Notes under the pieces: model-generated
The model's input: the letters and a program-made list of their open reading frames with translations, nothing else
What the model was told of the DNA's origin: nothing
Databases searched by the model: none
In this document: piece by piece, positions 45,919 to 47,128 of the stretch
How positions within the stretch are numbered: position 1 is the first letter of the stretch
How the letters are laid out: each line of letters opens with the position of its first letter
NCBI RefSeq assembly: GCF_007828215.1
Contig: NZ_VIUE01000001.1
Span: forward strand, 430,030-494,029
DNA: 64,000 nt
Direction: 5' to 3'
Origin: Pseudomonas sp. SJZ074
GTDB lineage: Bacteria; Pseudomonadota; Gammaproteobacteria; Pseudomonadales; Pseudomonadaceae
Translations under genes and position numbers: made by a program

Positions 45919-45964
45919 TATACCAAAAACCCAAATTGTACAGGTTTAAACGACGGCGTAGTCT
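45919..45964 (+). promoter_or_regulatory. LitR-type operator and promoter of flavoprotein gene
   Basis: TATACC (45919-45924), 12 bp, TGTACA (45937-45942) matches the T(G/A)TACA-N12-TGTA(C/T)A pattern I recall for Pseudomonas class II LitR regulators, with one mismatch. The second half-site overlaps a -35 (TTGTAC, 45936-45941) followed at 17 bp by TAGTCT (45959-45964). A third TGTACA is at 45964-45969. Confidence 0.65.
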
Positions 45965-45989
45965 GTACAGAAAGGTAAACGAGGCCCTC

Positions 45990-46976
45990 ATGACTGTACC
46001 CATCGCAATCATCGGCACCGGCATCGCCGGACTCTCAGCCGCCCAGGCCCTGACGGAGGCCGGGCATGTCGTTCAACTCTTCGATAAAAGCCACGGTAGC
46101 GGCGGACGCATGTCCAGCAAACGCAGCGACGCTGGCACACTGGACATGGGCGCACAATATTTCACCGCCCGTGATCGCCGCTTCGTCACCGAAGTCCAGC
46201 GTTGGCAGGCCAACGGCTGGGCTGCGGAGTGGAACCCGCAACTCTACAACTTCCAGGACGGGCAACTGACCCCCTCCCCGGACGAACAGACCCGCTGGGT
46301 CGGCACCCCGCGTATGAGTGCCATTACCCGCGCCTTGCTCGGCAAGTTGCATGTACAGTTCTCCTGCCGGATCACCGAGGTCTACCGCGGCCAGGAACAC
46401 TGGCATTTACAGGACGCGGAAGGCTTCACCCACGGCCCCTTCGGCCAGGTTGTCATTGCCACGCCCGCGCCCCAGGCCACCGCGTTGCTGGCGGCCGTGC
46501 CGAAACTCGCCGGGGTGGCGGCCGGCGTGAAGATGGACCCCACCTGGGCCGTGGCCCTGGCCTTCGAACAGGCGCTGGATACGCCCATGGAAGGCTGCTT
46601 CGTGCAGGACAGCCCCCTCGACTGGCTGGCCCGTAACCGCAGCAAGCCGGGACGCGACAGCACGCTCGACACCTGGGTATTGCACGCTACCAGCGACTGG
46701 AGCCGGCAGCACATTGACCTGCCCAAGGAAGCAGTGATCGAACACCTGCACGGAGCCTTCGCCGAACTGCTGCACAGCGCCATGCCCGCGCCGAGCTTCA
46801 GCGTGGCCCACCGCTGGCTCTATGCGCGCCCTGCCGGCAGTCATGAGTGGGGCGCCTTGGCCGATGCCGACCTGGGCCTGTATGTCTGTGGCGACTGGTG
46901 CCTGTCCGGCCGGGTCGAAGGCGCCTGGCTCAGCGGTCAGGAAGCCGCGCGGCGCTTGCACGCCAGCCTCCAGTAG
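45990..46976 (+). CDS. Renalase-like FAD-dependent oxidoreductase
   Basis: A 328-residue flavoprotein of the amine-oxidase/renalase-like group. The FAD motif is [21 protein letters not shown], followed by [15 protein letters not shown] and the [15 protein letters not shown] block. The C-terminal FAD contact is [20 protein letters not shown]. Such proteins occur next to photolyases and photoreceptor regulators in pseudomonads. The substrate may be a damaged or reduced cofactor, but that is inference. The ATG at 45990 follows the LitR-type promoter at 45919-45964. Confidence 0.88.
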
Positions 46977-47067
46977 AGCGCGTCACCCTGCGCCACCCGC
47001 TGCTGTCGAACGAGACGGCAGCCTACCCGCGAGTAACGCCAGCGGTTCTCCCACCCGGCAAACCAGG

Positions 47068-47128
47068 TTGACTTGTACAGCCATGGATCTATGATGAGTA
47101 AAATTGTACAAAAATCACATTTTGTACA
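47068..47128 (+). promoter_or_regulatory. Light-operon promoter and LitR-type operator
   Basis: TTGACT (47068-47073), 16 bp, TATGAT (47090-47095) forms a good sigma70 promoter. TGTACA (47105-47110), exactly 12 bp, TGTACA (47123-47128) follows at the expected start of transcription, so a bound regulator would block initiation. A further TGTACA lies in the promoter spacer (47074-47079). Confidence 0.75.

Follow-up and report, generated by a model that had tools for sequence, protein, structure and literature searches.

The closest described relatives of the locus discussed here are the blue-light switches of P. mendocina NBRC 14162 and P. putida KT2440. In P. mendocina the promoter P6650 has the form TTGACTN16TATGAT and carries two copies of TGTACA-N12-TGTACA, of which Site 1 covers the -35 and Site 2 falls between the transcription start and the ATG (PMC9758184). 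The protein shown to bind P6650 is PmlR2, the paralogue encoded beside the LOV gene, which gives a broad footprint and represses the promoter in vitro, with relief by the illuminated short LOV protein. Site 2 alone bound PmlR2 and Site 1 was not needed for binding, and the site at folM in the same species reads TGTACA-N12-GGTATA (PMC9758184). In the case of P. putida the consensus for PplR1 is T(G/A)TACA-N12-TGTA(C/T)A (PMC9758184). Class II LitR proteins are called AdoB12-dependent in one of these papers (PMC11417400), and B12 is given as not needed by them in another (PMC9758184).

With regard to the genes under control, RudS is a tRNA 4-thiouridine desulfidase, the name being given to P. 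putida PP_0741, and rudS genes are often found within light-responsive operons (PMC11417400). PP_0738-PP_0742, which includes the photolyase gene PP_0739 and the PplR1 gene PP_0740, was up-regulated as one cluster in co-culture under the same illumination, and the authors tie the rise to another stress, so that it shows the cluster to be co-regulated and not to be induced by light as such (PMC11014904). The switch, its consensus and the rudS-type promoter are already published.

The window is a stretch of 64,000 nucleotides from a Pseudomonas genome assembled into 71 contigs with a total of 6.25 Mb. The rudS gene has P. mediterranea (97%) and P. corrugata (95%) as its nearest named relatives, with two other Pseudomonas at 96%, and a plasmid collection searched with the promoter region gave no match. 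The features of the locus are given in Table 1. An earlier note on this DNA had picked out TGTACA-N12-TGTACA just past a TTGACT-N16-TATGAT promoter and TATACC-N12-TGTACA before the flavoprotein gene, had named the consensus as the reported site of Pseudomonas class II LitR (PplR), and had recognised a LitR-like MerR regulator nearby. Both pairs are present as it described them, the consensus is the published one (PMC9758184), and the regulator has the MerR HTH and B12-binding_2 bundle of a class II LitR.

Table 1. Features of the renalase-rudS region (positions in the window)
Feature	Position	Strand	Remarks
P1 operator TATACC-N12-TGTACA	45919..45942	+	1 mismatch to consensus
Possible weak -35 TTGTAC and -10 TAGTCT	45936..45941 and 45959..45964	+	Spacer 17; putative; bases conserved
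Extra TGTACA half-site	45964..45969	+	21 bases after P1 operator; no partner at N12
Renalase gene	45990..46976	+	FAD flavoprotein, 328 aa; PF01593, PF13450
Site 1 left half, eroded, CGGCAA	47056..47061	+	4 mismatches to TRTACA
Promoter P2 TTGACT-N16-TATGAT	47068..47095	+	10/12 to sigma-70
Site 1 right half TGTACA	47074..47079	+	Abuts -35
Site 2 operator TGTACA-N12-TGTACA	47105..47128	+	0 mismatches to consensus
rudS	47151..48113	+	PF04463 (TudS, 11-152) fused to PF08349 (DUF1722, 195-311)
litR1	48113..49051	+	Class II LitR (PplR1/PmlR1 type); PF13411, PF00376, PF02607
phrB	49065..50519	+	Deoxyribodipyrimidine photolyase; NF007955 E=3e-157 (above cut-off); PF03441, PF00875
SDR oxidoreductase gene	50638..51396	+	PF00106
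CxxCxxCC zinc/iron-chelating domain protein gene	51425..51730	+	PF03692

The flavoprotein is, by homology, a bacterial renalase: phmmer against PDB gives 4zcc (‘Renalase’, E=7.3e-181) and 3kkj (1.7e-179), matching over residues 1-327 with the same start Met. Renalases oxidise 2- and 6-dihydro-NAD(P), abnormal isomers of NAD(P)H. From gene order we would expect PP_0742 to be the P. putida renalase gene. The product of rudS has TudS (2-thiouracil desulfurase) and DUF1722 in one protein, the same make-up as PP_0741, and the litR1 ATG overlaps the rudS stop. For comparison of close loci we used the best 80 of 322 confirmed, and these are therefore near relatives. LitR1 is encoded between rudS and phrB in 79 of the 80, the exception being L047 (P. 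citri), and an SDR match lies downstream of phrB in 79 of the 80, at 46-92% identity and variable distance. The SDR gene is probably in the same operon as rudS, litR1 and phrB, and the CxxCxxCC gene is the probable end of that operon. In L047, where LitR1 is absent, the matches to rudS and phrB are 208 bases apart; its Site 1 has decayed, its Site 2 carries a single mismatch, and its renalase operator is intact.

P2 is the only sigma-70-like match that a promoter scan finds in 45700-47250 (mean for shuffles 0.2). If the start is placed 48 bp before the ATG, as in P6650, transcription would begin near 47103, and Site 2 lies between this expected start and the rudS ATG. The rudS promoter thus has a consensus site and has TTGACT-N16-TATGAT with an operator before the ATG; since the hexamers, their spacing and Site 2 are as in P6650, it is a promoter of the same kind. 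Among the 81 close sequences TTGAC is present in all, TATGAT is exact in 65 and has one mismatch in 16, and Site 2 is exact with N12 in 72. Of the others, five have N13 at Site 2 (L038-L041 and L110) and four differ from the consensus at one or two bases. The closest relatives read (L038-L041 and G010) have N13 and not N12, which speaks against a rigid spacing.

Conservation was also counted base by base as Fitch steps on a tree of 77 renalase genes, taken from those of the 81 sequences in which this gene is full-length and stop-free; the counts for P2 use the alignment only from about 47048 onwards, as it is not reliable before that point. The counts are 0,0,0,0,0,1 for TTGACT, 0,0,2,2,1,0 for TATGAT, and 1,0,0,0,0,1 and 2,0,0,0,6,0 for the two halves of Site 2, and the Site 2 spacer gives 9,8,22,24,26,27,30,28,27,24,7,10. 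On the same tree the mean for 103 fourfold-degenerate sites is 13.4.

A full second operator over the -35 is not present in the window. The left half of Site 1 is exact in 65/81, the right half in 67/81 and both in 61/81, and the losses are concentrated in the clade of 17 formed by the window and L038-L053, in which the left half is exact in one and the right half in six, against 64/64 and 61/64 outside it. On this comparison the half-site at 47074 is what survives of a Site 1 that has eroded in the window's clade. The suggestion that single half-sites mark extra regulator contacts needs refining: those at 45964 and 47074 are both there, but the latter belongs to Site 1 as its right half and is not simply an addition.

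For a wider view we used an even sample of 79 genomes across the genus Pseudomonas. The Site 1/-35 composite occurs in 44 of them, once in each, with no match for reversed controls. We retrieved 30 of these copies, and in 29 the gene that follows is rudS. The exception, L144, is near a LOV gene and an SDR gene; in L144 and in L233 (G025 C20:16000-25500) a promoter with Site 1 and Site 2 lies beside short LOV and LitR genes and faces an SDR-containing set, not rudS. The P1 composite (at most one mismatch) is found in 48 of the 79, again once in each and with no match for reversed controls. There are 31 genomes without it, of which 23 were read (G001, G006, G014, G043, G069, G070, G075 and G078 being left out). 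In these more distant genomes an exact TRTACA-N12-TGTAYA precedes the renalase gene in 18 of the 23, and G015 has the site with one mismatch. In the other four of the 23 (G013, G027, G028 and G054) no site was found before renalase; the renalase gene and litR1 are on different contigs in G013, G028 and G054, and in G027 renalase is linked to the litR1 set and still lacks the site. In the same 18 genomes the rudS promoter has the exact site in 12 and an imperfect one (not exact N12) in six.

With regard to the proteins, LitR1 has a MerR HTH and a B12-binding_2 helix bundle and no Pfam match to the B12 Rossmann domain. It aligns recognisably to CarH (5c8d), and the residue that we match to the axial His is Leu. 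It thus has the features of class II and not the axial His and B12 Rossmann domain of class I, and B12 was rejected as LitR1 chromophore, both of these being missing. There is a second LitR in the genome, LitR2 (C5:71869), for which Pfam matches MerR only, and about 0.8 kb from it, with one open frame between, is a gene for a short LOV protein of 157 aa with the cysteine motif DCRFLQ. Being a stand-alone LOV domain with the Cys motif and encoded near a LitR, this is a good candidate for the short-LOV partner. LitR2 is flanked on its far side by an SDR gene that occupies the place of folM and may well be folM. Upstream of this SDR gene there is no consensus site, only weaker TATATC/TGTACC-type repeats at N13; upstream of LitR2 (L124:7605-7650) there are three blocks of this type at N13, weaker than the consensus. 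The recognition helices of LitR1 and LitR2 are near-identical, so either could bind, and the protein on the operators may be LitR1, LitR2 or both.

The distribution of these genes bears on the choice. LitR1-type genes (at least 44% identity) are in 78 of the 79 genomes, all but G015. LitR2-type genes are in 71 by per-genome counts, 69 of them at 31-39% identity, with G034 and G065 assigned to this type from match count alone. Short LOV matches of at least 58% are in the same 71 genomes, matches that cross one or two stop codons (as in G038, G021 and G072) being counted as present. LitR2 and the short LOV thus come and go together as a module, and LitR1 and its operators are also found in genomes that lack it. 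The eight genomes without the module (G013, G018, G020, G026, G027, G028, G054 and G056) all have LitR1, and have no LOV match or only matches of 39-47% inside large open frames. In each of the eight one or more exact operators precede rudS or, in G027, a gene with DUF1722 only. In that genome (L225, C1:1157500-1164000) the DUF1722-only gene replaces rudS, and TGTACA-N12-TGTACA is kept exactly upstream of it.

It is thus possible that LitR1 has another input, and an alternative reading takes this further: LitR1 would be the main regulator and independent of the short LOV, answering to another photoreceptor or signal, with the LOV protein acting through LitR2 only. The shared distribution of LitR2 and short LOV and the operators retained in all eight genomes favour it. 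A scan for the canonical LOV cysteine motif adds that G020 has none and that the only one in G026 comes from reading another gene in an alternative frame. We considered whether G026 and G056 keep a remnant of LOV and rejected this, since the motif arises there in an alternative frame within a 220-codon open frame that belongs to another gene. The same scan finds a LOV domain in larger frames in six of the eight, of 548 aa in G018, 556 aa in G056 and 867-1006 aa in G013, G027, G028 and G054, and it would miss a LOV with a variant motif, both of which speak against the proposal, as does the possibility that the repressor persists in a role unrelated to light. Also against it, LOV knock-outs in P. 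putida are reported to alter PplR-dependent transcription (PMC9758184), and on balance we regard this alternative as a serious minority possibility.

In the case of the renalase promoter the claim that the operator overlaps the -35 of the flavoprotein gene was not borne out. The promoter scan recognised no sigma-70-like -35/-10 at P1, the weak TTGTAC/TAGTCT pair of Table 1 not being picked up, and there is no TTGACT-N16-TATGAT promoter. The operator itself is strongly conserved among the close P1 sequences: TATACC is exact in 77/79, TGTACA in 79/79 and the 45964 half-site is at its distance in 76/79, with all three exact in 74/79. On the tree of 77 sequences TATACC has 0,1,0,0,0,1 steps and TGTACA none at any of its six bases. 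The conservation in steps per base spreads past the operator in these 77 sequences, which leaves room for a further factor. The 45964-type half-site is absent at that place in 18 promoters from more distant genomes, G064 and G012 having TGTATA nearby.

In a second alternative LitR would act at the rudS promoter only, and the conserved bases before renalase would be there for a different regulator or sigma factor, with TGTACA among them by coincidence. The constraint on the whole P1 stretch, the absence there of sigma-70 hexamers, the left half TATACC in place of T(A/G)TACA in 77/79 close sequences, and the lack of a site in G027 although its renalase is next to the litR1 set are all in its favour. 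However, the exact consensus is found in 18 of the 23 distant genomes read, and G013, G028 and G054, where the site is missing, are those in which the renalase and litR1 contigs differ. The TATACC variant has also been named elsewhere, as the reverse complement of the folM site TGTACA-N12-GGTATA in P. mendocina (PMC9758184) has the TATACC-N12-TGTACA form seen in the window. We consider this second alternative improbable.

The exact consensus T(G/A)TACA-N12-TGTA(C/T)A has a single match in the 6.25 Mb, which is Site 2. If up to two mismatches are allowed, 6 sites fall in the window where 1.31 would be expected, and none of 100 shuffles reaches 6. TGTACA occurs 21 times in the window against 5.2 expected from dinucleotide shuffles, and since the hexamer is over-represented there anyway, single half-sites mean little. 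Five of the 21 are inside the two intergenic stretches, which together have 370 bases (Poisson P of about 5e-8 from the density elsewhere), and the remaining 16 are outside both. Over the whole genome matches with up to two mismatches number 281, not far above the 217 of the reversed control; with up to one mismatch there are 21 places, including the two of the window, and 18 of the other 19 sit in open frames (stop to stop) of at least 120 codons. A one-mismatch operator-like site at C7:149326 is outside any such frame, and the one at C11:114485 overlaps a long frame yet precedes the first ATG of the gene there, which on inspection resembles a GntR gene. The genome-wide scan that the earlier note had proposed thus establishes that the exact site is unique and otherwise adds little, and its expectation that regulon members can be read directly from the sequence holds for the two promoters of the window, 18 of the 19 further sites being in open frames; a read-out of the regulon in this way was dropped. 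That the sites reflect chance or composition and have no regulatory role is scarcely credible, as the excess of TGTACA in the window and the modest margin of the two-mismatch counts are outweighed by the unique exact match, the lack of any reversed-control match to either composite in 79 genomes, the strong base-by-base conservation and the likeness to P6650, a footprinted promoter (PMC9758184).

We conclude, with a probability of about 85%, that both sites in the window are operators of the known class II LitR/short-LOV blue-light switch, a reading that rests on sequence and on analogy with the described systems. It is supported by the likeness of P2 to P6650, by the conservation of the operator bases while the Site 2 spacer varies freely, by the composites in 44/79 and 48/79 genomes with no match in reversed controls, by the second LitR and short LOV of this genome, and by the joint rise of the P. 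putida cluster. It is weakened by the erosion of Site 1, the N13 spacing in relatives, the lack of promoter hexamers at P1 and the spread of its conservation past the operator, by the link of the P. putida rise to another stress, by the renalase site being absent in four and imperfect in one (G015) of the 23 genomes read, and by the rudS site not being exact N12 in 6 of 18 distant genomes. For this organism we infer from the described switches that LitR binds, that light is answered, that renalase is induced and how far the operon reaches, and these would fit together as follows. In the dark an oligomer of LitR1, LitR2 or both would occupy Site 2 and the Site 1 remnant at the rudS promoter, and the same LitR would occupy TATACC-N12-TGTACA at the renalase promoter, RNA polymerase being kept off both. 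Blue light would activate the short LOV encoded near LitR2, which would pull LitR off the DNA, and release would induce rudS-litR1-phrB-SDR-CxxCxxCC and, separately, renalase. The products would fit a role in photoprotection through removal of the light-sensitive 4-thiouridine of tRNA, DNA photorepair and, given the activity generally ascribed to renalase, oxidation of dihydro-NAD(P) isomers.

What is added to the published picture is a flavoprotein identified from its sequence as renalase under a conserved LitR-type operator, and the suggestion that LitR1 may have an input beyond the short LOV. The window gives the proposed connection of renalase with blue light a concrete and conserved form that lends itself to testing. 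The literature searched had nothing pairing renalase with photolyase or ‘blue light’, and renalase and light-inducible were not found together among the matches listed. Sumi et al. 2020, which was outside that search, reportedly describes 19 light-inducible P. putida genes, of which PP_0742 may be one, and we therefore do not claim the renalase link as unpublished. There is also a natural series of promoters, with full or eroded Site 1 and N12 or N13 at Site 2, and one of genomes with and without LitR2 and LOV; with these, what LitR1 does could be told apart from what LitR2 does and no mutants would have to be made.

We would also put forward, tentatively and with the odds against it, a genus-wide light regulon that joins 4-thiouridine removal, photorepair and repair of NAD(P)H isomers by renalase, with LitR1 as its core repressor having an input other than the short LOV. 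If so, LitR2 and the short LOV would be gained or lost as a module, with LitR1 and its operators persisting without them in roughly one sampled species in ten, and in the genomes lacking the module an unrecognised photoreceptor or some other stress signal must release LitR1.

Comparison with known systems starts from CarH and the other class I LitR proteins, AdoB12 photoreceptors, which share with LitR1 the MerR HTH and B12-binding_2 bundle. LitR1 differs in having no B12 Rossmann match and Leu at the assigned axial His position, and both its site and its operon belong with class II.

The P. putida KT2440 system (PplR1-PplR3 with PpSB1-LOV and PpSB2-LOV) has the same consensus and the same cluster of photolyase, PplR1 and RudS genes (PP_0739-PP_0741). 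KT2440 has three LitR and two LOV proteins, whereas our genome has two LitR matches and one short LOV.

The P. mendocina NBRC 14162 system (PmlR2/PmSB-LOV) is described (PMC9758184) as having at P6650 the promoter hexamers, Site 2 and an operon with LitR and phrB that we see in the window; as here, another LitR is encoded close to a short LOV at a separate locus. PmlR2 has a B12-binding_2 match, unlike our LitR2, and the operon includes the furan fatty acid gene ufaM, unlike that of the window. A ufaM-type operon was looked for in our genome and set aside, the one clear cyclopropane-synthase-family locus (C23) having no paired site nearby; there is a weaker match to this family on C6. Site 1 is full in P6650 and only its right half is left in the window. 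In the window renalase has an operator of its own; P. mendocina has an FAD oxidoreductase, PME6625, as a possible counterpart.
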